NCBI RefSeq assembly: GCF_004369205.1
Contig: NZ_QFGA01000001.1
Coordinates: 1,798,001-1,862,000, forward strand
Direction of reading: 5' to 3'
Length of the DNA: 64,000 bases
Source of the DNA: Pelotomaculum schinkii
Lineage (GTDB): Bacteria; Bacillota; Desulfotomaculia; Desulfotomaculales; Pelotomaculaceae
Position numbers and translations under genes: made by a program. The notes beneath the pieces were generated by a model. The model saw only the letters and a list, made by a program, of their open reading frames with translations, made no database searches and was not told the origin of the DNA. This document shows, one piece after another, positions 47 to 32,725 of this stretch (the stretch's first letter is position 1; each line of letters starts with the position of its first letter).

Positions 47-299
47 AATTTCCCAACTCCTCCTTGTTATAGCCATAAAAGCCTTACTTCACTAGTCAGG
101 TATTTATTCCTCCAAAATTGCGACATTTTTCTTGACCATCATCAGGTTCCTGTGTTAAGGTTTAAAATGTGAATTGTATAGCCCTTAACTGTGTTGGACG
201 GACATCATGTTCGTTTTCAAGGAACCGGAAGGCTTCTGGGGTGGGGAGTCGGAATTTTTCGACTTTGCCATCCCTTTTTTATTTCTATTTTTTTTAATA

Positions 300-9609: not shown

Positions 9610-9780
9610 TATTGTCCCCACCCGTTTGAGCTTTGGCACGTACATAGCTAGAGGAACCACCCTCAGCCACATTAAGTAAAGCCTTAATCCGGCAGTACCT
9701 GTTAACCCGTAGGCGTCTCTCGACATTTCCGGGCAGTGGCGTGTGATCTATGCAGAAGCCTCACCTAACGAGGAATATTC
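9610..9780 (-). promoter_or_regulatory. M-box (ykoK leader) magnesium riboswitch
   Basis: The minus strand contains the conserved M-box blocks in order: CGTTAGGTGAGGCT (9770-9757), CACTGCCCGGAAATGTCGAG with AGACGCC (about 9739-9712), GGGTTAACAGGTACTGCCGG (9710-9691), AAGGCTTTACTTAATGTGGC and CTGAGG (about 9685-9660), and AAAGCTCAAACGG (9634-9622). The M-box folds when cytoplasmic Mg2+ is high and then lets the downstream terminator form, so the genes should be on when Mg2+ is low. It fronts the MgtE_N-CBS gene and, through it, the Nramp-related transporter gene. Confidence 0.93.
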
Positions 9781-20338: not shown

Positions 20339-22015
20339 TCATTCCGCAGACACCACACAGTTTCGCCCGTTTGCCTTGGAATCATAAAGCGCCCGGTCCG
20401 TCCGCGCCAGCAGCTCTTCCAAAAAGTCCTCAGGGCTGCCGAATATCCCGGCGCCGGCCTTGACGCTGACAAGGCCGACGCTGACAGTTACGCGCAAATC
20501 CCCTCTGGAGGAACTGATCCATTGGTTCTCTATGGCGCTTCTCACTTTTTCGGCAAGGATAACAGCGCCCTTCCTATCCGTGTTCGGCACATATATGATA
20601 AATTCATCCCCTCCGAACCTGGCCAGAATATCCGAACGGCGGAGCTTGCTTTTTATAGCCTCAACGACACTGCGCAGGACATTATCTCCGATCAGGTGTC
20701 CGTACGCGTCGTTGATAAGCTTAAAATTATCTACATCTATAAGCAAGATTGAAAATGGAATATTATAACGCTGAGAAACCAAAATCTCGTACGCCACCTG
20801 CTGCATCAAGTATCGCTTGTTGTAACAATCAGTCAAATCGTCTGTTATCGTAGCCTTTTCAAGTTTCTGATTAACGTCGTAAAGCTCTTCCTGGATCCGC
20901 AATAATTCCTCGTTTTGCTGCCGGAGGATCGCATTATTTTCATTATTCTGCTCGAGCAAACTACGCAATTCGGTAACGTCATTCAAAGTTATGATCCGTC
21001 CCAAAAGATTTTTTTTGCCGTCAAGCACCGGAGACACATGGATGGATACATGCACAGTTTGCTCACCTATGATTTTCACTTCGGCTTGCAGACTTTTTAA
21101 TTTGTTGGTATTATACTCCTCCAAAAAAATACTATCGGGGCCGTCTGCTTCAGAAAGCTGTAAGAGGCCCTTCATCTCGAAATTCCGGCCTGCCTGCGTC
21201 TTTAAAAATCTCGTTGCGCTCTTGTTAAGATCAAGAATTATTCCGTCTTTATCTATGACGAACATGCCTATAGCCATGCTGTCTATAACCTCACGCTGGG
21301 CGATGTTTACAATCCGGAACAAGTCGTACCTATTGATTGCGATTACAAAACAAACGGCCGACAATACAATCCCGCAGGAAGTCAAACCGGGGACAACCCC
21401 GAAAAGCGGGAAAAACGCCACGTTGAAAAGAATATCCAATTGAGAAAATATTATTAAGATTACAACGCCCCACATGCAAAGAGATACCTGCTTTTTCATG
21501 TTGCCTTCAGCCGCATTTACAGCAGTCTTAAATATCAAGACGGTGGAAACTAATAAATAGCCCAAACCGGAGATAAAAAAGAACCAGAATAAAGAGCCGT
21601 ATGTACGGACCGCCCATCCGCCGCCGCTTGATTGCGTAAACATGAAATGCCATGGGTTGGTTGTCGCCAGTATTGAGCACAGGACGGCAGGCGCTGCCGA
21701 CAGGTAAAAAAAGGACCTTTTCAAACCGTAAAATTTCCTGGTCAACACCAAAGAGAACATCAGCCAGCCGAAGCCCAAAAAACTAAGGCCAATGAACGCC
21801 ACATTCAGAAAAAACCACTGCAGCTGCTGATCAGGGGTTATGTTAATGATGAAATTACAGCTCGGCCACAGCATCATCAAAGAGTGAAAGGCTAAATATG
21901 CTTTGTGCAGGGTTGTGATGTTGTTTACCGTTAGCGCATAAATGAAAAGCGCCAACAATATGCAGAAAAGATAAAAATCCATCCACACAGGCAGCATCTG
22001 GTTCACTTCTTTCAC
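20339..22015 (-). CDS. Membrane diguanylate cyclase (7TM-PAS-GGDEF)
   Basis: 558 residues. About 1-215 form seven membrane helices of the histidine-kinase 7TM type. About 220-325 is a PAS domain (FVIDKDGIILDLNKSATRFL), followed by a coiled coil (about 330-375) and a GGDEF domain with the intact active site RFGGDEFIIYVPN. The inhibitory site RxxD (RRSD) lies exactly five residues before GGDEF, so product feedback is likely. The enzyme makes cyclic di-GMP from two GTP. No EAL domain is present. Three cyclic-di-GMP-I riboswitches lie 9-12 kb away on the same strand, so this protein is a plausible source of their ligand. GTG at 22015 is the listed start; ATG at 21997 is a close alternative. Confidence 0.92.
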   Translation of the reverse strand: MKEVNQMLPVWMDFYLFCILLALFIYALTVNNITTLHKAYLAFHSLMMLWPSCNFIINITPDQQLQWFFLNVAFIGLSFLGFGWLMFSLVLTRKFYGLKRSFFYLSAAPAVLCSILATTNPWHFMFTQSSGGGWAVRTYGSLFWFFFISGLGYLLVSTVLIFKTAVNAAEGNMKKQVSLCMWGVVILIIFSQLDILFNVAFFPLFGVVPGLTSCGIVLSAVCFVIAINRYDLFRIVNIAQREVIDSMAIGMFVIDKDGIILDLNKSATRFLKTQAGRNFEMKGLLQLSEADGPDSIFLEEYNTNKLKSLQAEVKIIGEQTVHVSIHVSPVLDGKKNLLGRIITLNDVTELRSLLEQNNENNAILRQQNEELLRIQEELYDVNQKLEKATITDDLTDCYNKRYLMQQVAYEILVSQRYNIPFSILLIDVDNFKLINDAYGHLIGDNVLRSVVEAIKSKLRRSDILARFGGDEFIIYVPNTDRKGAVILAEKVRSAIENQWISSSRGDLRVTVSVGLVSVKAGAGIFGSPEDFLEELLARTDRALYDSKANGRNCVVSAE

Positions 22016-23186: not shown

Positions 23187-26048
23187 TTACTTAATAATTA
23201 CGCTTTCTGCGGACTGCGCTCTCGGGGCGGCATTATTGTCGTAGAGTGTCAGCACAAAGCGGTAGGTCCCGTTTTCGCAGCCGGCGGGGACGGTCAGGGT
23301 GGCGCCGCCGCCGGTTATGCTCACCGGCAGGTCCGTCTGGCCGGCCATATTGACATAAGACGCTCCGTATTTGCGCTGCAGGGTCGACTTTACAGCGCCG
23401 GAACCCAGCGTCTCTATGTTAAAAACGACCGGGACGGCGGCAGCCGATTTGTCAAAGACTCTTGCCGCGGCCCTTGCTCTTATGGCGTATTGGCCGGGCG
23501 CCGCCACCGCCAGGGTGGTCCCGCCGCCTGCCAGCAGATAGCCGTCGCGGGGAGTCGCAGCAGCTGTACAGGCATAGGCCTTCATCCGGAGATCATAGCT
23601 CCCCGGGGCAAACGGAGCCGCACAACCAGACATATCAATGGAAACGTTATTATCGCCAAACGCCGCCGCCGTAAAGACATAAGGCAGGGTTGAGGTAACG
23701 GCGGCTCCATTGATCTTCGCGCCTATAGGAAAGGGCACCGTTACTCCGCCCCGTTCCAACTGTAATTCACAAGCGTAACTCTTCCCGTCGGTCTTATAGT
23801 CATAGCCTTCAACCGGCGTCCTGGAAAGGTTGATATGAACCGAGCCGTTTTCCCCGCTTGCGGTGAGCGAATAGGCGTTGACGCCCGCCACCGTGACAGA
23901 CGGCATAGCGCCCGCAGAAGTACCGGCGGCGGTCAGGAGCTCCACTTTGTAGGCGCCGGAGGCGATGCCAGGCGCTGTTTTTGAAAAATCAAAGATAAAC
24001 AGGTATTCCTTTTCAGTTCCAGCCGGTACCGGTTCTGCAGGCGCATAGTTTTCCGTTGCGCTGCCCATCTTTATAAATTCACCCAGCGCCAGCCTTGTTC
24101 CCAATTCCGCCGCAAGGTTTTTATAATAGTACACACCGTCAACCAGCATAATAATCGAGGTATTGGCCGGCAGCGGGACCACCGTCCCTTCATTTGCCAG
24201 GCCAATGGTTTGGGTTTCCAGGTGATAGGTTTCGTTATAACGCATGCTGAAGGCCGCCGTAAAAACACTGTCCGAAGTGACGGCCGCCGACGTGCCGGTT
24301 CCCAGCAGCGCGGCGGTATAATGCCTGCCTTCTTTTATGTTTGCGTTTACAATTTCCACCGCATCGTGCGGCACAAATATTCCGGGCACCGGGATACCGT
24401 TCTCATCCTCCGACCATACGTCATCGCCCGCAGGGTTGTTACTGTTCAACCGATCGACAACTTCTTCCCAGGACATATCACCGATGGGAACCGCGCCGTC
24501 CTCTTCCGGGACATCGCCGCCTCCTGTTCCAGCCGGAGCGTTGATGTAATAGTTGTTCCAGGCGTCATCGGGATCTAAGGGCGCCTGCGAGGAGCCGACT
24601 ATCCCCCCCACATTGGTGCTGCCTGTCACACTGCCCGTACTTAAATTGTTGTGTATGGTGGATTCATCGCCGGTCCAGTTCCCGGCTCCCGCTATTCCGC
24701 CTATTGAGTCACGTCCGGCTACCGCCCCTTCATTAAAGCAATTGCTCACGGTGTTGCTGCTGTCCGCGTATCCGACCACGCCGCCTATGTAGCCCTCAAT
24801 CCCTGTCACCGCGCCACTGTTGACGCAAACCGTGATCAGGCCGTCTGTGTAGCCCGCCACGCCGCCTATGAAATACCTTCCCGATACGGTTCCGGAAGCG
24901 TAGGAGTTGCTCACTTCGCTGTCCGTGTCGGCATACCCCGCCACGCCGCCTATGTAATTCTCAATCCCCGTCACCGTGCAATCGCTGCTGCACCCCGTTA
25001 CAGTCTCATCCGTCCTGCCGGCCACGCCGCCCACATAATATCTGCCCGATACGGAGCCTGAAGCAGAGGAGTCACTCACTACACTCTGGTCGGCGGCATA
25101 TCCGGCCACGCCTCCCGCGTAATTCTCCTGTGCTTTCACCGTGCCGCCGACGCTGCATCCTGTTATATCTCCTCCCTCTATGCGGCCAACCACGCCTCCG
25201 ACATAATATCTTCCCTGGACAGTTCCTGAAACAGTGCAGTTAGTTATTTCATTATCAGCGCCGGCAGCATATCCGGCTATGCCCCCCGCATAATTCTCCA
25301 ATGCCGTCACTGTACCGTCCACGGTACAGTCCGTTATACTCACATCTGTCCGGCCGGCCACACCGCCAACATAATATCTTCCCTGCACGGTTCCTGAAAC
25401 GGTGCAGTCGGTTATTTCGCTGTTAACCGCGGCATATCCGGCGATACCCCCCGCATAGCTCTCTCCGCCGGTCACCGCGGCATTGACGGCGCACCCGGCA
25501 ATCACTCCGTTGGTGTAGCCGGCCACACCTCCCGTATAATTTCTCCCTTTTACACTTCCCGATATACTTACGTTCCGGATCACGCTTCCGTCGCCGGCAT
25601 AGCCAAACAGCCCCCAGTAGTCGGGCCAGGATTCGTTGACATACAGACCGGTTACTTCGTTGCCGTACCCGTCAAAATAGCCCTGAAAACGCTTGTTCGA
25701 GGTCCCGATACTCTGGAATTTTTTTGGCTTCTTGGACACAAAGGAGCCGTCGGCGTTCATCTCGTTTAAGAGAATATCCTGGGTAAGCCTGATATATTGG
25801 CCGGCATAGGTTGTACCGCTATTGACGCATTGCGAAAAATAGGCAAGCTGCGCGCCGTCGCTGATTAAATAGGGGTCCGCCTCGGTTCCCGTCCCGCCGG
25901 CGAAGCTTGTAGCAACAGTCCCGTCCCATAAAGGGCCGGCGGCCAGGGCGGTCATATTTTTATACACCGGAACAGGCGTCACGGGCGAAAGAAGCCAGAC
26001 GCAGCACAAAAGGACAGCCATTATTTTGTTCTTCAGTTTTTTATTCAT
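23187..26048 (-). CDS. Secreted GLUG-repeat surface protein
   Basis: 953 residues. A signal peptide (KIMAVLLCCVWLLSPVTPV) is followed by an entry region (about 40-140; GTVATSFAGGTGTEADPYLI). About a dozen 30-36-residue GLUG-type repeats occupy 150-480; alternating versions read YAGGIAGYAAVNSEITDCTV and YYVGGVAGRTDVSITDCTV. The C-terminal 450 residues are beta-rich and Ala/Gly-rich, without an LPXTG motif or S-layer homology domain. GLUG repeats form beta-helical solenoids in adhesins and proteases of Gram-positives. It is the last gene of the SipW/TasA-like locus, starting three bases after the previous stop, so it is probably coexpressed as an extracellular matrix or adhesion partner. Confidence 0.85.
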   Translation of the reverse strand: MNKKLKNKIMAVLLCCVWLLSPVTPVPVYKNMTALAAGPLWDGTVATSFAGGTGTEADPYLISDGAQLAYFSQCVNSGTTYAGQYIRLTQDILLNEMNADGSFVSKKPKKFQSIGTSNKRFQGYFDGYGNEVTGLYVNESWPDYWGLFGYAGDGSVIRNVSISGSVKGRNYTGGVAGYTNGVIAGCAVNAAVTGGESYAGGIAGYAAVNSEITDCTVSGTVQGRYYVGGVAGRTDVSITDCTVDGTVTALENYAGGIAGYAAGADNEITNCTVSGTVQGRYYVGGVVGRIEGGDITGCSVGGTVKAQENYAGGVAGYAADQSVVSDSSASGSVSGRYYVGGVAGRTDETVTGCSSDCTVTGIENYIGGVAGYADTDSEVSNSYASGTVSGRYFIGGVAGYTDGLITVCVNSGAVTGIEGYIGGVVGYADSSNTVSNCFNEGAVAGRDSIGGIAGAGNWTGDESTIHNNLSTGSVTGSTNVGGIVGSSQAPLDPDDAWNNYYINAPAGTGGGDVPEEDGAVPIGDMSWEEVVDRLNSNNPAGDDVWSEDENGIPVPGIFVPHDAVEIVNANIKEGRHYTAALLGTGTSAAVTSDSVFTAAFSMRYNETYHLETQTIGLANEGTVVPLPANTSIIMLVDGVYYYKNLAAELGTRLALGEFIKMGSATENYAPAEPVPAGTEKEYLFIFDFSKTAPGIASGAYKVELLTAAGTSAGAMPSVTVAGVNAYSLTASGENGSVHINLSRTPVEGYDYKTDGKSYACELQLERGGVTVPFPIGAKINGAAVTSTLPYVFTAAAFGDNNVSIDMSGCAAPFAPGSYDLRMKAYACTAAATPRDGYLLAGGGTTLAVAAPGQYAIRARAAARVFDKSAAAVPVVFNIETLGSGAVKSTLQRKYGASYVNMAGQTDLPVSITGGGATLTVPAGCENGTYRFVLTLYDNNAAPRAQSAESVIIK

Positions 26049-26050
26049 AG

Positions 26051-26842
26051 TTATACTCCTGTCGCCGTTACACCGGTATAATTGTCCTCCGCGCTGTCCT
26101 TAAAAAAAACCAGTTCATAGAGCGCCGCCGTATTGAGAGAAGTCGTAAGAGTTTTATTTGCCAAATCGATACTTGTGGCGTTGAGCACGATGGGGTTGGT
26201 CATGTCGGGAGCGGCGCCGTCCTGCCAGGTAATGGTTACCGCCCGGGCCTGCTGCGCGCTTTGGGCCAGTGTAATTTTCAGGGCGGCCACAGGCGAGCCT
26301 GTGTTTTCCGCCACAGTATAGGAAACCGCAGGGGAGATGATAAACCTGCCTCGCAGCGTTTTGGCATAGGGATAAGACGAGGCTGCGGTCACCAGCACTT
26401 CCAGGGGCGCGCCCGTGTTGGCCGGCGCAGGCACAGTCAGGCTGACTGCCTGGCTCTGTCCCACCGCACCGGCCGGGTCAATTGCGCCGTTAACACTGCT
26501 GCCCGACGGCGCCGCCGCGGCGATATATGTGATCTGTCGATCCGAAACATTGAGCTGATTTTCATAATTCCTGAGCTCAAAGCTGATCGTCGCCGCCGTA
26601 TGCCAGTCGTGCGTGATATGATACACCGGTACGTCCGCCGCGTCTGTCAAAAGGTCGCTGGTGAAATAAAAGTCGCCCTCGGTGGTGGCGATATATGTTT
26701 TCATAACGGCCGAGTAAATATAGCTCGCCCACGAAATCGTGTAAAAGGAACCGATCAACAAAGCCGCGGCGATGGCAACAACCGTTAATTTCAGCTTTTT
26801 TGCCCGGTAAACCTTTGCCGGATCAAATCGCTTGCTGCGCAT
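26051..26842 (-). CDS. Membrane-anchored exported protein of the SipW locus, unknown fold
   Basis: 263 residues with a basic N-terminus (RSKRFDPAKVYRAKKLKL), one hydrophobic helix (TVVAIAAALLIGSFYTISWA) and a beta-rich exported remainder with repeated AxxYxY / TVPAPANTG-like segments. No family recognised. It starts 16 bp after the upstream gene and ends three bases before the GLUG gene, so it is embedded in the operon. The type-II membrane topology suggests a tether or assembly factor for the exported fibre-like proteins, which is inference. Confidence 0.7.
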   Translation of the reverse strand: MRSKRFDPAKVYRAKKLKLTVVAIAAALLIGSFYTISWASYIYSAVMKTYIATTEGDFYFTSDLLTDAADVPVYHITHDWHTAATISFELRNYENQLNVSDRQITYIAAAAPSGSSVNGAIDPAGAVGQSQAVSLTVPAPANTGAPLEVLVTAASSYPYAKTLRGRFIISPAVSYTVAENTGSPVAALKITLAQSAQQARAVTITWQDGAAPDMTNPIVLNATSIDLANKTLTTSLNTAALYELVFFKDSAEDNYTGVTATGV

Positions 26843-26858
26843 GATTTATCCACCTTTT

Positions 26859-27437
26859 TTATGCCTGCACGGCTGTAAGCTTCAGTACGATATAATCTAT
26901 CTCGTTTCTGTACCGGTAATGATTGCTCCCGCCCGGCCAGGAGACCGTCAGTACATAAGCCTTTGTTTCTTCCACGTTGGCCGTGAACGACTGGCTCTCA
27001 CTGACATAACGGTTGCCGAGACGGTTGAAGGCAACGGCGGCTCCCCCCTCTTTTTGCAGCGTGTAGTTTAAAGGAAGGTTGCCGGTGGTTTTCAGTTCCA
27101 GGGTAACGTCCTGGTTATAGCCGCTGACCGTTCCGGAGCTGTTCTTGTTGCTTATCCATATCGCAATAGTTTTTGTATCTCCGGGCGCCATGTCGTTGAA
27201 ATAAAACGTGGCGGCTTCATAATCGATGGCCCATGTTGAAAACTCAATATCCGGCGTCGTCGAACCCGAACCCGGATCACTGCTGTTTTCAGCGCCTGTA
27301 TTGTTTATCACCGAGCTGAAGCGTGAAAATGAAACACCTGTAACCACAAGCGACACGATAAACAGGTATATAAAACAGTAATACAACTGCTTTAACCTTA
27401 TATTCAGCTTCAGTCTCTTTTCCCGCTTTGCTCTCAT
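26859..27437 (-). CDS. TasA/camelysin-like exported protein
   Basis: 192 residues. A basic start (MRAKREKRLKLNIRLKQL), one hydrophobic helix and VSFSRFSSVINNTG after it place the mature protein outside. The mature part contains IEFSTWAIDYEAATFYFNDM, APGDTKTIAIWISN and a C-terminal beta strand (NEIDYIVLKLTAVQA) that echoes the C-termini of its neighbours (YSLMIKVTAQAG and YKLTITVKATQINP). ATG at 27437 is preferred; a TTG at 27455 is less likely. The shared ending and position in an operon with two SipW-type peptidases indicate a TasA/camelysin-type jelly-roll subunit. Confidence in the fold is moderate. Confidence 0.65.
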   Translation of the reverse strand: MRAKREKRLKLNIRLKQLYYCFIYLFIVSLVVTGVSFSRFSSVINNTGAENSSDPGSGSTTPDIEFSTWAIDYEAATFYFNDMAPGDTKTIAIWISNKNSSGTVSGYNQDVTLELKTTGNLPLNYTLQKEGGAAVAFNRLGNRYVSESQSFTANVEETKAYVLTVSWPGGSNHYRYRNEIDYIVLKLTAVQA

Positions 27438-27484
27438 TTCCGGCGCGCCTTTCAATTATCTAATTATCTATCATGGGTGGTTTG

Positions 27485-28546
27485 TTATTGAGGCGCTACT
27501 TGCTCCCCGCTGACGCGGAACAGCACCTTAACCGATTCCCTGGCCTGCAGGGCGTTGACGGCAAAAGTATCGTAATCGTCATAGGCTGCCAAAAGCGAGG
27601 TCTGGCAGGCGGTCAAAGCCTCGTTGGCAGCCAGAATCAGCCCATGGTATTGCGCAAAGTGCTCGGCATCCGACAGGGTGCAGGGCGTATCCGCAGCAAT
27701 ATCATGCGGGGGCCAGGTCCCGTCGGCGTTCGGGCTTCCGTGGACCGCCAAATAGTCTTCGACCGCGTTTGCCGCGGCATTGTACCGGTCCAGCAGGCCT
27801 CCCGGGCCGTAATATTCATCATATGCATCCTGATAGTAGGGCAGATATCTGCCGGCAATCTCCGTGGAAGGATCCGCCGGCACCACATGGGGCGCCGTCA
27901 CTGCGGCAATATTTGTATCATTGATATAATAGGACGTGTTCCACTGCCAGTAAACAGTGATTGTAACCTCGTCGTTGCTGCCCGCGGAAAAGTTGGGCGT
28001 TCCCGAAAAAATACTGAAATATCCGTCCTCATCGGCAGTGACGTCCTTTGGCCTGAACCAACCCGTGCCATAATATGGAGACGAGCCGGTATATGGAGAA
28101 AACACAGTGGGCACAGTGTCGGTCGCGCCGTCGCTTATTTCAGCCGTAATTTTGAAAATAAAGGGCGCGAAGACATCCTGGCCTGCTTCGGTGGCGATAG
28201 TAGCTTTGGTCTCCGCGGTAGTCAGCTGCATCAAGTCGGCCGCGTTCATTTTCACATCATAAGTCATGGCGACATCGGAGCCGCCGCCTCTGAAGGTAAA
28301 AGATTTTTCACCGAAATCCATCGGTTTAATACTTTGTCCATTAAATAAATCAAAGGTAAACCCCTTGTTGTAGAACTCGCCGTCAATATCATCTTCGCCT
28401 CTTGCTCCGAGATTCCATTTGGCAATCAGCGCCGCATCGCCGCCGGAATACACATCGGTATATCTTGCCATGGTCGATGATACTATATTTGAAGACGTAA
28501 TTACTACAGCCACCAAAAGCGCCATCAGTATTTTACTGATCTTCAT
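27485..28546 (-). CDS. SipW-dependent exported protein, TasA/camelysin-like (large form)
   Basis: 353 residues. The signal peptide ends STMARYTDVYSGGDAALIAK, matching the SipW-type junction of TasA-class proteins, and the following WNL is shared with the 234-residue paralogue upstream (KYTSEYDGEDMALIANWTL). The mature protein has a beta-rich N-terminal domain and an insertion (about 245-330) rich in Tyr, Ala and Asp that is predicted helical. It ends VKVLFRVSGEQ. It starts 11 bp after the second signal peptidase gene, its likely processing enzyme. TasA relatives polymerise into extracellular fibres of biofilms; that role here is inference. Confidence 0.78.
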   Translation of the reverse strand: MKISKILMALLVAVVITSSNIVSSTMARYTDVYSGGDAALIAKWNLGARGEDDIDGEFYNKGFTFDLFNGQSIKPMDFGEKSFTFRGGGSDVAMTYDVKMNAADLMQLTTAETKATIATEAGQDVFAPFIFKITAEISDGATDTVPTVFSPYTGSSPYYGTGWFRPKDVTADEDGYFSIFSGTPNFSAGSNDEVTITVYWQWNTSYYINDTNIAAVTAPHVVPADPSTEIAGRYLPYYQDAYDEYYGPGGLLDRYNAAANAVEDYLAVHGSPNADGTWPPHDIAADTPCTLSDAEHFAQYHGLILAANEALTACQTSLLAAYDDYDTFAVNALQARESVKVLFRVSGEQVAPQ

Positions 28547-28557
28547 ATATCATCACC

Positions 28558-29085
28558 TCATTTTTGTTGCATTCTTACCCGGGCTTTTCGATACAAGTCC
28601 CCGCCATAAACGCCAAGGACCAAAAGCAAAACCAGCGCCGCCATGCCTGCCGGTTTTTTGGAGACGACAACGGCCAGGCCGATTTTGGGGATCCGCAAGA
28701 CCATTTTACCCGCAAACTTATCTGCTGTTAAAAATTCATCGGCGGCATTGTTGTTATCGCCTTTCAAGGTAAACACGCCGTTTTCCTCGCTGACAATGCG
28801 GTGGGTAAAAGCGTTTGTCCCGTGTAAATAGGTGACGACATCGCCGACCTTGTATTGATCGGCAGCCTGCTCGCGGATAACTATGACATCGCCGGGATAT
28901 ATGGCTGGCTCCATGGAGCCGGATAAAACAACAAGTTGCGAAAAGCCAAAAATCTTCGGCGCCGGAGCATGGGTTACGGCTTTATTGACACCCAGGCAGA
29001 GGTTTATCAGGATCAGCAGCGCCAATAACCCGAGCGGCAGATACTTTACACAGTTAACCAACATCTCTTTGTGCTTTGGTCTCAA
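28558..29085 (-). CDS. sipW: Signal peptidase I, SipW (ER-type, S26B)
   Basis: 175 residues with N- and C-terminal membrane helices. The catalytic serine lies in VVLSGSMEPAIYPGDVIVI, and the second catalytic position is histidine in GTNAFTHRIVSEENGV where classical bacterial enzymes have lysine. KGDNNNAAD is the box D/E region. This Ser-His arrangement marks SipW and eukaryotic/archaeal-type peptidases, which in Bacillus process TasA and TapA. It lies directly between two of the exported proteins of the operon, 17 bp after one and 11 bp before the other. Confidence 0.92.
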   Translation of the reverse strand: MRPKHKEMLVNCVKYLPLGLLALLILINLCLGVNKAVTHAPAPKIFGFSQLVVLSGSMEPAIYPGDVIVIREQAADQYKVGDVVTYLHGTNAFTHRIVSEENGVFTLKGDNNNAADEFLTADKFAGKMVLRIPKIGLAVVVSKKPAGMAALVLLLVLGVYGGDLYRKARVRMQQK

Positions 29086-29102: not shown

Positions 29103-30347
29103 TTACCCGGCTTGCGCTGTGACTTTGATCATAAGGCTGTAAGAATAGGCCGGATTGCCGCCATAGGCGGCATAATCGTTATCATTAGGGCCATCCGGCC
29201 AATTCCATTCCAGCGTGTATTTCACATTCCTGCCGCCCGCCACGGCCGTGTCCTGATAAAGCTCTTCCGGCGCACACCATGCCGTCTCATTTCCGGCGAC
29301 GTATACGTCGCCTGCTTTCAGGCGAAAGCGCATGGGGATTTTGTGCGCCGCGGGAAGCGTGTCGGCCGCTGTAAAGGTTAGATCATAAAAGGTTGCGTAC
29401 CTGTTGCCCGTGTTATCCACCGTGAACTTATAGCTGCCGCTCATGCCGGGGGCTATGCGCTTGTTGGCGCCGAATATATTGACGCTTACCGCGCCGGCCG
29501 TACCGTATGAGGCGGTCGTAGCCGTGTCCAAAACGTCAAAATCGAAAGGTGAAGGCGTCGATCCGCCACCACCGCCATCTCCACCACTGCCACCGCCGCC
29601 GGCAGGAACAGGGGTGTCCGGTTGCACAGGCGGGTTGACAGGATTGTAAGGATTGACTTGATTGACTGGATTCTCAAGATCGGCTGGGTTGGCCGGGTTG
29701 ATTGACTGCGGCGTTCCCGCGGGAGCAGCTCCCAGCTCGATCCGGTCAATACCTGTGACCTTTCCGTCCTCCCCCTTTTTAAGATAAATGGTGATCTCCA
29801 GCACCTTGACATGCACCGCCACTTGAAAGACAATGGTACCGTCGGGGAGACGGACGAGTTCCGCGTCCTCGGTCCCGGCCGTCCTTTCAATATCGACCTT
29901 GCAGCTTGCAAGCACGTTGCCGGCTTCGTCAAGGACGCTGATGGTATGGGAACCCTCGTCGACGTCAATAAAGATGAAGTAGCCCTGGCTGTCTGTCCTG
30001 GTATAGCGCGGGTCGCTGCGGAACTCAATGAGCCCGTAGGCAAAGGGTGTCCCGTCGGTGTAGACGACCCGGCCCATTAAATCAATGCGCTGCTCAACAG
30101 GGACCGTAACCTCCTCCTGCGGGGAAAAAAAGTGATACAGCCTGCCGATAAACCCCAGGACGGGGCGTTTCACCTGCACATCGGGCAGGTTTGATCTCAA
30201 AACAAAAACATGCCCGCCCGTGCTGATGTCACGGATGATCCCGTAGGTCGGCACGGCGGCGTACACCACGATGATGGTGATGATGACCGCCAGGATGAAG
30301 TTTTTGCGCCTTCGCTCCGCATTCTCGCTATTCATCGCCTGATCCAC
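29103..30347 (-). CDS. Membrane-anchored modular protein: carnitine/CarboxypepD-like domain, NP repeats, TasA-like C-terminus
   Basis: 414 residues. A basic N-terminus and one membrane helix (FILAVIITIIVVYAAVPTYG) are followed by a carboxypeptidase-regulatory-like beta sandwich (about 85-150; GRVVYTDGTPFAYGLIEFRS, TDSQGYFIFIDV). A Pro/Asn repeat stretch (about 215-250; NPANPADLENPVNQVNPYNP) and a Gly/Ser linker come next, then a C-terminal domain (about 275-414) ending YSLMIKVTAQAG like the TasA-type neighbours. GTG at 30347 has GGGGTGAT upstream. The tether-plus-subunit architecture suggests an anchor or minor fibre component analogous to TapA (inference). Confidence 0.75.
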   Translation of the reverse strand: MDQAMNSENAERRRKNFILAVIITIIVVYAAVPTYGIIRDISTGGHVFVLRSNLPDVQVKRPVLGFIGRLYHFFSPQEEVTVPVEQRIDLMGRVVYTDGTPFAYGLIEFRSDPRYTRTDSQGYFIFIDVDEGSHTISVLDEAGNVLASCKVDIERTAGTEDAELVRLPDGTIVFQVAVHVKVLEITIYLKKGEDGKVTGIDRIELGAAPAGTPQSINPANPADLENPVNQVNPYNPVNPPVQPDTPVPAGGGGSGGDGGGGGSTPSPFDFDVLDTATTASYGTAGAVSVNIFGANKRIAPGMSGSYKFTVDNTGNRYATFYDLTFTAADTLPAAHKIPMRFRLKAGDVYVAGNETAWCAPEELYQDTAVAGGRNVKYTLEWNWPDGPNDNDYAAYGGNPAYSYSLMIKVTAQAG

Positions 30348-30644: not shown

Positions 30645-31349
30645 CTAAAGATTAGGATTAATTTGTGTTGCTTTCACGGTAATAGTTAGTTTGTATTCTG
30701 TACGGTCATCTATGGCAGAATTAGTGCCCAGAGTGGTGTCATTTACATCTGTAGAATCAGTATATACAGTCGTGGAGGCTTCATACGGCCATCTCCAATA
30801 CACTGTCGCTTTCGCCTTGCCATTTGTTTGGGGTACATTACTCATCGGGCTAAAACCTTCTCCTGCTGAAGCTGCATTTTTAAGTCTGTCTTTAAGATCA
30901 TATAGATTGCACCAGTCATCATTCCCTGTTAGAGAATACTCAATAGGAGGAACATCTGCAATTGTTATCTCATTATCAGTAACTGAAACGTCATTAACCG
31001 CAAAATCGAAAGTCATCTCAGCTGCGACATCACCTGTGTTTGCAATGTTGAGAACAAAATCGCCATCAACGCCGGGTGCGATGATAGGGTGTCCATCTTC
31101 CCTCAGCATATGATTCTTTGTGTGGGAAAATAAATCAAGGTCAGCGTCACCGAGGTCGTATGTTATTGTATTTTCTCCTGCTCCTCTGATCACAGTGGGT
31201 GTCAGTGTCCAGTTGGCAATCAGAGCCATATCCTCCCCATCATACTCACTGGTATACTTGGCGAAGGTGCCGCCCATCATTGCTGTGGAAATCATGCAGA
31301 GCACCAGCAGCAGTACGGCGGCTCTGACGGTTTTGCCCGGGTTTTTCAT
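30645..31349 (-). CDS. TasA/camelysin-like major exported subunit (SipW-type signal)
   Basis: 234 residues. The signal region (AAVLLLVLCMISTAMMGG) leads to TFAKYTSEYDGEDMALIANW; the junction FA-KYTS has the SipW-type motif. The mature chain is beta-rich (DFVLNIANTGDVAAEMTFDF, KAKATVYWRWPYEAST) and ends with the strand YKLTITVKATQINPNL common to the family. Start ATG at 31349; the longer frame to 31427 has no ribosome binding site. A cyclic-di-GMP-I riboswitch with its own terminator lies immediately upstream (31499-31605), giving the gene independent control and marking it as the likely main fibre subunit. TasA homology is by signal and architecture, not by alignment. Confidence 0.75.
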   Translation of the reverse strand: MKNPGKTVRAAVLLLVLCMISTAMMGGTFAKYTSEYDGEDMALIANWTLTPTVIRGAGENTITYDLGDADLDLFSHTKNHMLREDGHPIIAPGVDGDFVLNIANTGDVAAEMTFDFAVNDVSVTDNEITIADVPPIEYSLTGNDDWCNLYDLKDRLKNAASAGEGFSPMSNVPQTNGKAKATVYWRWPYEASTTVYTDSTDVNDTTLGTNSAIDDRTEYKLTITVKATQINPNL

Positions 31350-31498: not shown

Positions 31499-31605
31499 TA
31501 AAAAAACGGCCGGGTTGCTACATTTCAGCAACCCGGCCGCCATAGCTGATTTGCTTTAGGCCCGTCGGTTTTGCGCCCCCGCCTTTCGGCGGGTTAGCCC
31601 TTAAA
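31499..31605 (-). promoter_or_regulatory. Cyclic-di-GMP-I (GEMM) riboswitch with terminator, copy 1
   Basis: The minus strand reads AGGGCTAACCC, then the GAAA-capped stem CCGCCGAAAGGCGG, the invariant GGGGCGCAAA, then GGGCCTAAAGC, and CGGCCGGGTTGCTG, i.e. all conserved GEMM-I blocks in order. The last block is also the 5' arm of a terminator (CGGCCGGGTTGCT pairs with AGCAACCCGGCCG, then seven T). Aptamer and terminator therefore share a strand and compete. It controls the TasA-like gene 150 bp downstream. The direction of the response is not decided by sequence. Confidence 0.9.
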
Positions 31606-31628
31606 AATAAATAGGGGTTAACATTTTA

Positions 31629-32267
31629 CTATAATTCAATTTTTTTATCTCCGCCCTTTGCCGCCCGCAGCGCCGCCAGTTCCGCTTCCAGCTGAGCTTC
31701 GCGATCCGCTTTTTTCCTGTTGCGCCTGTTGCGCGACGTTATATCGTAAACGATAAACAAGCAGAGAGGTGTTATAACAAAAAGCAGCATTCCGAGAGGC
31801 GTCTGCAGGAACATGGCAAACCTGCCGACCCCGGCGGCGCGCCAGAGGTAGATGCCCTCCAGGTCCGCCACGCTCACCGCCTTGGCGTCAGCGCCGGTGT
31901 TAGCGTCGCCCTTGGTGAGAAAGGTTAAACCGTCCTCAGTCCGGACGTCGGTCACTCTGTGGGTAACGACCGTGTTCTGCGCGGCGCGGAAGGCGATAAT
32001 ATCGTCTTTGACAATTTGCTCCGGCGCTACTACCTTGGTCACAATAAGGTCTCCCGCCAGAATTGTCGGCTCCATGGAACCGGAGAGGACGATAAAGGGC
32101 TTATACCCAAAAAAATCAGGGACCTTATCCGGATATATGTATGACCTTACAATAAACGTTACATTAACGATCAAAACCAACACAAGAAATGCACAAACAG
32201 TGACGCCAATAACGGATATTGCTTTCCCCAAAGCTGTTTTCGGCACCTTTTCCTCTCCCACTGCCAA
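31629..32267 (-). CDS. sipW: Signal peptidase I, SipW (ER-type, S26B), first gene of the locus
   Basis: 212 residues. One N-terminal helix (SVIGVTVCAFLVLVLIVNVT), the catalytic serine motif PFIVLSGSMEPTILAGDLIV, histidine in NTVVTHRVTDVRTEDGLTFL replacing the lysine of ordinary SPase I, and TKGDANTGAD as the last conserved box. A C-terminal helix is followed by a Lys/Ala/Glu-rich cytoplasmic tail (AQLEAELAALRAAKG) not seen in the second paralogue. The leader carries two tandem cyclic-di-GMP-I riboswitches. The enzyme should process the SipW-type exported proteins encoded downstream. Confidence 0.92.
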   Translation of the reverse strand: MAVGEEKVPKTALGKAISVIGVTVCAFLVLVLIVNVTFIVRSYIYPDKVPDFFGYKPFIVLSGSMEPTILAGDLIVTKVVAPEQIVKDDIIAFRAAQNTVVTHRVTDVRTEDGLTFLTKGDANTGADAKAVSVADLEGIYLWRAAGVGRFAMFLQTPLGMLLFVITPLCLFIVYDITSRNRRNRKKADREAQLEAELAALRAAKGGDKKIEL

Positions 32268-32344
32268 TGACCCCCTGTTAATATTTTAGATTGTAAATTA
32301 TTTTATCATAATTATCCATCTCCTACATAAAATGTTTTTCTTTT

Positions 32345-32455
32345 CAACAATAAAAAGCCGGATTGCAAAATGATTATCAGCAACCCGGCCGCCTTAGCTC
32401 GCATGCTTTAGGCCCGTCGGCTTTGCGCCCCCGCCTTTCGGCGGGTTAGCCCTAT
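32345..32455 (-). promoter_or_regulatory. Cyclic-di-GMP-I (GEMM) riboswitch with terminator, copy 2 (proximal of tandem pair)
   Basis: The minus strand carries AGGGCTAACCC, CCGCCGAAAGGCGG, GGGCGCAAAGCC, GGGCCTAAAGCATGCGAGCT and GGCCGGGTTGCTG, then a terminator stem ending GCAATCCGGC and TTTTTATTG. It differs from copy 1 at a few loop positions and preserves the pairings. It lies about 80 bp upstream of the sipW start at 32267. Confidence 0.9.
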
Positions 32456-32510
32456 TATTAGTTTATGTATATTATTTATGAAAAAGGCTTCTTTTTCTGG
32501 CTCACTGGTC

Positions 32511-32622
32511 AAATAAAAACGGCTAAGTTGCTGCAACCTTTATTAGCAACCCAGCCACCCTAGCTTCCATGCTTTAGGTCCGTTGGCTTTGCGCCCCCAC
32601 CTTTCGGTGGGTTAGCCCTGCA
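32511..32622 (-). promoter_or_regulatory. Cyclic-di-GMP-I (GEMM) riboswitch with terminator, copy 3 (distal of tandem pair)
   Basis: The minus strand carries CAGGGCTAACCC, the stem CCACCGAAAGGTGG (G-C pairs of copy 2 replaced by A-T with both sides changed), GGGCGCAAAGCC, CGGACCTAAAGCATGG and GGGTTGCT. A terminator follows: GGCTGGGTTGCT pairing with AGCAACTTAGCC, then GTTTTTATTT. The compensatory changes support a functional fold. Two complete switches in series precede the same gene. Confidence 0.88.
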
Positions 32623-32725
32623 AAAAAATATACTGCTATATTGCCGATGTCATTTTACTATAATCATCCTCATTATGCAATATTTTTTTACTAAAAAAAT
32701 ATATCAAAAAACAGTAAAAAAGCAC

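Follow-up and report, generated by a model that had tools for sequence, protein, structure and literature searches.

The window, by which we mean the whole 64,000-nucleotide stretch of the Pelotomaculum schinkii genome that was analysed, carries on its minus strand an operon in the order W1, W2, SipW1, W3, SUB1, CPREG, SipW2, SUB2, SUB3, SUB4 and a GLUG-repeat protein, in which W1, W2 and W3 are c-di-GMP-I riboswitch aptamers. The features are listed below.

32651–32664, minus: 14-nt direct repeat 5′ of W1, identical to 31622–31635
32542–32627, minus: W1, first aptamer of the tandem (RF01051, 63.8 bits, E 3.7e-10)
32515–32556, minus: W1 terminator, its 5′ arm being the 3′ strand of W1 P3 (fold of aptamer plus tail)
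32376–32461, minus: W2, second aptamer of the tandem (RF01051, 68.9 bits, E 2.1e-11)
32352–32389, minus: W2 terminator, overlapping the 3′ end of W2 (fold with tail)
31629–32267, minus: SipW1, SipW/archaeal-type signal peptidase, 212 aa, TTG start (TIGR02228, 86.4 bits)
31622–31635, minus: 14-nt direct repeat 5′ of W3, identical to 32651–32664
31524–31609, minus: W3, single aptamer 5′ of the first exported subunit gene (RF01051, 71.6 bits, E 4.5e-12)
31500–31541, minus: W3 terminator, 16 pairs, overlapping the aptamer 3′ end (fold and pattern scan)
30645–31349, minus: SUB1, exported, SipW-type signal, 234 aa from the preferred start (ORF to 31427)
29103–30347, minus: CPREG (PF13620, 24.8 bits, below the cut-off of 32.3)
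28558–29085, minus: SipW2, second signal peptidase, 175 aa (TIGR02228, 88.4 bits)
27485–28546, minus: SUB2, exported subunit, 353 aa (phmmer to SUB1, 6.8e-6)
26859–27455, minus: SUB3, small exported protein, conserved in the operon of relatives
26051–26842, minus: SUB4, exported protein, conserved in the operon of relatives
23187–26048, minus: large exported GLUG-repeat protein, 953 aa, end of the operon (PF07581, 109.9 bits)

The aptamers were detected by an Rfam scan of the entire window, in which RF01051 (c-di-GMP-I, GEMM-I) has a cut-off of 35 bits and each of the three matches is full length (model positions 1–87). The original prediction had placed the GEMM-I sequence blocks three times on the minus strand, and the covariance scan, at 63.8–71.6 bits against 35, confirms this. 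P2 with its GAAA loop, P3 and the conserved core are all present in W1–W3, all 20 of 20 pairs are formed in each copy and the GAAA loop is invariant. The starts of W1 and W2 lie 166 nt apart and those of W2 and W3 852 nt apart; among themselves the three share 80–84% of their bases, compared to a mean of 56% and a maximum of 67% with the other seven c-di-GMP-I copies of the same genome. At the alignment column that we take to be nucleotide 20 of GEMM aptamers, all three have G. The stem differences between copies had also been described as compensatory; changes on both sides of a pair do occur, but in only 2 of 20 pairs, a number equalled by 51 of 500 shuffles, and we therefore dropped them as strong proof. 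W1–W3 are, as predicted from sequence, ordinary members of a known riboswitch class. Two further riboswitches lie elsewhere in the window, an M-box at 9610–9779 (minus strand, 137.8 bits) and a Na+ riboswitch at 192–250 (plus strand, 42.9 bits).

When each aptamer is folded together with its tail, the most favourable structure of all three copies pairs the 3′ strand of P3 with a downstream arm that is followed by U, displacing 6 P3 pairs in W1, 6 in W2 and 9 in W3 (minimum-energy folds), which agrees with the earlier claim of an intrinsic terminator sharing its 5′ arm with the aptamer 3′ end. By folding, each of W1, W2 and W3 has a separate expression platform with its own terminator; the W3 terminator, placed there at 31541–31505, stands at the top of the pattern-scan list, from which those of W1 and W2 are absent. 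Since the 5′ arm of the terminator is the P3 strand of the aptamer, the two structures are mutually exclusive. Enforcing the aptamer fold costs 13.3 (W1), 15.1 (W2) and 20.6 kcal/mol (W3) at equilibrium, and because the terminator is favoured by 13.3–20.6 kcal/mol, the decision between the two would have to fall during transcription; with an advantage of 20.6 kcal/mol for its terminator, W3 could be a near-constitutive terminator.

The open reading frames agree with the predicted layout of two switches 5′ of a signal peptidase gene (31629–32267) and one 5′ of an exported subunit gene (the ORF with the motif GGTFAKY). Both peptidases pass TIGR02228 (cut-off 51.85 bits) at 86.4 and 88.4 bits, but neither reaches NF046067, the Bacillus SipW equivalog (93.1 bits for SipW1 and 76.7 for SipW2, against a cut-off of 190), so that the label SipW-like holds for the broader family and fails for the Bacillus equivalog. 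Ser64 and His103 of SipW1, presumably the catalytic residues, are invariant in 10 aligned sequences, SipW1 included. The signal motifs of SUB1 (GGTFAKY) and SUB2 (SSTMARY) are similar to each other, and CPREG combines an N-terminal membrane segment, a CarboxypepD_reg-like domain, a proline-rich linker and a SUB1-like C-terminal part, a layout that would make it a possible anchor.

The description of the subunits as TasA-like finds no support at the level of sequence families, as none takes SUB1 or SUB2 over its cut-off. Searches of NCBIfam and Pfam gave nothing over cut-off for SUB1–SUB4 or CPREG; the TasA model NF046066 did not match SUB1 at E ≤ 1 or SUB2 at E ≤ 0.1, and the BsaA model TIGR04090 did not match SUB1. 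When 22 SUB1-type members were scanned singly, only scattered matches appeared: TapA (TIGR04087) in four, best E 0.021, and BsaA (TIGR04090; E 0.015), PF14905 (2.2e-5) and NF033893 (3.8e-4) in one each. Compared to solved structures, the SUB1 sequence gave a single match with an E of 1.2. An AlphaFold2 model of SUB1 built from 22 sequences is of medium quality (pLDDT 66.5, pTM 0.59); with this model, Foldseek returned the Escherichia coli common pilus subunit EcpA as the sole match below 1e-3 and a TasA fibre at E 0.15; the EcpA match was not used as proof of a fibre. By VIA, the same medium-confidence model placed TasA (5of2) first, with 136 aligned at 4.3 Å and a Z of 5.6, although a Z below 8 may reflect no more than a shared arrangement. 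EcpA and a fimbrial protein join TasA in the range Z 5.0–5.6, and virus capsids come next at Z 4.8.

A SUB2 search over 113 genomes of the order found the operon in eight, seven of which carry a c-di-GMP-I switch in or at the operon, at differing places. One switch stands 5′ of SipW1 in Formimonas and in G021, where SipW1 and the rest are on different contigs; G015 and G008 (two contigs) have one switch 5′ of SipW1 together with a tandem between SUB2 and SUB3, a place where G024 also has a tandem; G014 has a tandem 5′ of SUB1, with no SipW1 between; and G019 has one switch after SUB2, at a contig end. The operon of G016 is present with no switch in it, and upstream of it we read an apparent response regulator and sensor gene. 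If switches were placed uniformly at random, 40 kb being allowed for each genome and the genome of the window excluded, six of seven genomes of the order with class I would have a probability of 2e-7, by our own counts and with relatedness ignored.

In a tree of 24 aptamers, W1–W3 cluster with the copies that G021 and G014 have in the operon (support 0.950), and a second cluster holds the operon copies of G008, G015, G019, G024 and Formimonas (support 0.948); the copy of the named record L019 is in neither. Branching order within the first cluster is poorly supported, W1 joining G021 and G014 at 0.578. The best reading of this short alignment would be that switches were copied inside the operon on two or more occasions and came to stand at different places. 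Behind the tandems of G008 and G024 we also noticed an apparent partial c-di-GMP-I copy, its 3′ half followed by a terminator (L122, just below 16106, and L134, just below 3161), and in G008 another c-di-GMP-I switch (L122:7707–7790) stands 5′ of GGDEF-like genes oriented towards the fibre operon.

Recurrence of the arrangement extends beyond the order. An alignment of SipW1 searched against 398 genomes of the phylum found nine at E ≤ 1e-40, the genome of the window included, and seven of these nine have a class I or class II c-di-GMP switch at the locus. From the fetched surroundings, c-di-GMP-I lies near the locus in G142, G183, G383, G459 and G480 besides the window, that is, in five of the eight other genomes, and G230 has c-di-GMP-II directly 5′ of the peptidase. 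The remaining two, G374 and G458, have neither class at the locus and no match to either anywhere in their genomes. With uniform placement over 40 kb per genome and the genome of the window excluded, five of eight with class I has a probability of 3e-6, and six of eight with class I or II of 8e-8 (own counts, relatedness ignored). The family search gave no match in any of 14 well-known control genomes.

As within the order, the positions vary. Three switches of G183 share a contig and stand 5′ of SipW1, of a second SUB1-type gene and of CPREG, respectively; two more lie on a different contig, between SUB1-type genes. The switches of G142, in a stretch chosen by its CPREG match, stand 5′ of the SUB1–CPREG–SipW2 part, about 21 kb from the SipW1 match. 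All c-di-GMP-I copies of G183 (five), G142 (two) and G383 (one) stand at these loci. G459 has a class II switch (75.8 bits) directly 5′ of the peptidase and a class I tandem further on; in G480 a class I tandem scores 91.2 and 83.9 bits, two class II matches are just below cut-off or weak (51.2 and 35.6 bits), and both of the exported proteins tested pass the SipW-signal model TIGR04088.

Of the nine best SipW1 relatives in named records (L011–L019), all but one carry a switch of class I or II at this locus, in one case weak; L014, L016 and L018 are contigs of G015, G008 and G021, so this sample overlaps that of the order. Class I lies at most 120 nt upstream of the SipW1 ORF in L013, L014, L016 and L018, and at another operon gene in L019. 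Class II lies at most 60 nt upstream of it in L015, in L012, with a second copy in tandem, and in L011, the weak case; in these three it takes the place that class I occupies in the other four. The class II matches of L012 and L015 (47.5, 39.6 and 35.2 bits) are below the Rfam cut-off, and both records were used to build our class II model; L011, which was not among the building sequences, scores 35.6 bits with that model and 23.7 bits in Rfam, against a cut-off of 53.5. No class I or II switch was found at the L017 locus.

Class I was found in none of the other 71 loci, which are mostly distant, and class II in three of them. L027 has a class II tandem between SUB2 and a SUB1-type gene, L046 (Eubacterium multiforme) has three class II copies in tandem, and L052 (Clostridium moniliforme) has two. 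The tandems of L046 and L052 precede an exported protein, then SipW and then a second exported protein. Against the BsaA model, whose cut-off is 60 bits, this second protein scores 99.0 in L046 and 105.9 in L052; the first exported protein passes in L046 (71.5 bits) and is below cut-off in L052 (55.3). In these two predicted arrangements, c-di-GMP riboswitches are tied directly to a curated family of SipW-dependent matrix proteins. A class II match in L065 was not counted, being weak, on the other strand and about 2 kb from the peptidase. SUB1-, CPREG-, SipW- and SUB3-type genes recur in many of the loci L020–L059, mostly of uncultured Clostridia, 10 of which were scanned and gave no Rfam match. 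Class II switches or candidates were additionally seen at SipW-type peptidase operons in L147, L148 and L149.

The overlap of aptamer and terminator recurs among the operon copies: of 17 class I operon copies folded, 16, including W1–W3, have a terminator arm that uses at least three P3 residues, and the seventeenth (G019) is cut by a contig end. Elsewhere in the genome of the window, the tail displaces at least three P3 pairs in three of the seven other class I copies. In the phylum sample, eight of 12 further class I copies have a P3 terminator and four lack a convincing one: the two of G459 have weak hairpins only (−7.5 and −8.9 kcal/mol), and the folding scan found no hairpin reaching into the aptamer in the two of G480. 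With P3 hairpins weak or absent, these four were not counted as ON switches. For class II, a terminator with a 5′ arm beginning within the 3′ end of the aptamer, mostly 11–12 nt before that end, is present in 15 of 18 copies, and the scan found no terminator in the other three. ON logic would appear, from these folds, to be common across copies but not universal.

The aptamers, their terminators and the overlap between them, together with gene order, conservation and recurrence, make it very likely in our view that W1–W3 are c-di-GMP-I transcriptional ON switches for an operon that exports a SipW-dependent surface fibre. In the absence of ligand, the 3′ strand of P3 would pair with the downstream arm, the terminator would form and the polymerase would stop; c-di-GMP, the ligand that we infer, would bind the nascent aptamer and hold the strand in P3, allowing read-through. 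If one transcript passes all three gates, W1 and W2 would act as a two-gate series 5′ of sipW1 and W3 as an extra gate 5′ of the subunit genes, so that at low c-di-GMP there would be very little leak and the subunits would be the most strictly gated. In a product model with 5% leak per gate, one, two and three gates give fold ranges of 20, 398 and 7952 and effective Hill coefficients of 1.00, 1.16 and 1.24. Serial gates would, on this model, mainly gain tightness and little steepness: the control had been predicted to be sharp or graded, and sharp switching is rejected, the effective Hill coefficient reaching only 1.24 at three gates, whereas the multiplied fold range stands as the main gain. 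A series of 1.2, 1.8 and 3.4 fold reported in PMC4759541 runs in the same direction as the gate model.

Equilibrium folding strongly prefers the terminators, and Cd1, which has a highly similar aptamer type, is an OFF switch (PMC9262584), both of which would suit a reading of W1–W3 as OFF switches or simple attenuators. In Cd1, however, as that report describes it in the portion available, aptamer and terminator can coexist, whereas in W1–W3 the terminator arm is the P3 strand and the two are exclusive. Overlap of the terminator with P3 is the layout of the ON switches pilM (PMC9262584) and Bc3-5 (PMC4759541), and we consider an OFF response very unlikely. As for the ligand, we regard it as highly improbable that one or more of W1–W3 sense another cyclic dinucleotide such as 3′,3′-cGAMP. 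All three have G in the column equated with nucleotide 20, although two other copies in the genome of the window, at G000:C1:159755–159839 (L003) and C1:2001371–2001465 (L002), have A there, which would favour cGAMP. GEMM-Ib aptamers are close relatives, and A or G at nucleotide 20 sets their selectivity for cGAMP or c-di-GMP (PMC6456294, as far as its accessible part goes).

A single transcript through three gates has a stronger competitor, in which W1 and W2 gate sipW1 from one promoter, the subunit genes are gated by W3 from a separate promoter directly 5′ of it, and the three gates do not act in series; we treat such a pair of transcription units as a live possibility, though not the one we expect. 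The 14-nt string is identical at its two places, with 12 nt between its end and the W3 aptamer and 23 nt between its end and the W1 aptamer, and by our own reading the switches of G021 and G014 have similar strings 5′ of them. The repeat may be part of a promoter that was carried along with the switch copies; in other genomes, moreover, switches precede internal operon genes. A two-copy 14-nt repeat can nevertheless arise by chance, upstream of W3 we read no good −35 box at a normal distance, the promoter scan listed no promoter-like site there, and the gap from the sipW1 stop codon to the W3 aptamer is only 19 nt. The nature of the exported product is a separate matter. No curated fibre family takes the exported proteins of the window, and GLUG repeats are found in the last protein of the operon, features that would fit an S-layer or a set of monomeric adhesins as well. 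Against this stand the SipW-type peptidases accompanied by several small proteins with similar signals, the TasA, EcpA and fimbrial protein matches that head the VIA list for the SUB1 model, capsids being close behind, and the curated BsaA-family matrix proteins encoded at related loci with class II switches. A product other than a fibre seems rather unlikely to us, and the operon genes probably export surface fibres.

We compared the locus with known systems. The tapA-sipW-tasA operon of Bacillus subtilis is under the repressor protein SinR. The window resembles it in that one operon encodes both a SipW-type peptidase and small exported subunits, and differs in having riboswitches in place of a repressor protein. 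In Clostridium perfringens, SipW-dependent exported BsaA subunits polymerise outside the cell, and expression of BsaA/SipW needs the two-component system BsaRS (PMC7395162, in part), whereas the window has riboswitches and its SUB1 does not match the BsaA model. Among riboswitches, the closest counterpart is Bc3-5, a triple-tandem c-di-GMP-I riboswitch of Bacillus thuringiensis that controls cspABCDE and is proposed to be ON and more stringent in series (PMC4759541, in the sections available); there, as here, several complete switches each have a terminator that uses part of the P3 stem, but all copies of Bc3-5 stand in one 5′ leader, unlike the two before sipW1 and one inside the operon of the window. 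A tandem of GEMM-Ib switches in Geobacter likewise acts ON serially in vivo, deletion of the cyclase leaving no detectable RNA by the second switch, although these switches sense cGAMP and control cytochrome and other genes (PMC6456294, same part).

The tandem c-di-GMP-I form itself is already known, with 347 doublets and 12 triplets that were explained by binary lifestyle changes (PMC9481103); the accessible part of that survey does not tie tandems to SipW-type loci or to repeated copies within one operon. In the open-licence literature searched, mostly titles and the starts of abstracts and with older GEMM surveys outside its scope, we found no link between c-di-GMP riboswitches and SipW loci. 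As far as checked, what is new is the target, a SipW operon that has two peptidases and whose subunits fall in no curated family; the spread of switch copies inside one operon; and the apparent recurrence of c-di-GMP control of SipW loci via two unrelated aptamer classes. The original prediction covered one locus; similar wiring is seen elsewhere in the phylum, and a second class of riboswitch also takes part in it, so that linking SipW-type fibre loci to c-di-GMP looks like a repeated evolutionary choice. More broadly, and in a proposal that we advance tentatively as falling somewhat short of an even bet, SipW-type fibre loci of Bacillota outside Bacillus may be a standing target of c-di-GMP riboswitches, with two unrelated classes recruited or exchanged at the same place 5′ of sipW under the same ON logic, copies multiplied inside the operon and each module behind one or more gates.

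If this proposal is true, c-di-GMP would set whether, and in what proportion, the peptidase, the subunits and the later parts are made, and in anaerobic Bacillota the messenger of sessile life would control a matrix fibre without an intervening protein receptor. The use of two unrelated RNA sensors in one and the same position would be a natural case of convergent regulatory wiring, testable with RNA alone, and the internal copies would offer a testable model of serial riboswitches setting operon stoichiometry.

A GGDEF gene had been noted 9–12 kb away. It is present, at 20339–22015, but as the genome has 13 GGDEF matches its distance says little, and its role as a dedicated cyclase is unsupported. 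The c-di-GMP-I copies of the same genome at G000:C2:270426 (L008) and C2:377748 (L010) are 5′ of genes including apparent CBS-plus-GGDEF proteins, an arrangement that suggests feedback of c-di-GMP on its own enzymes. The copy at G000:C3:414006 (L009) precedes apparent flgB, flgC and fliE, and the L003 copy at C1:159755–159839 lies, by our own reading, 5′ of a GspF/PilC-like gene. Other tandem c-di-GMP-I pairs of the family, in L129 and L137, stand 5′ of operons that we read as type IV pilin-like.
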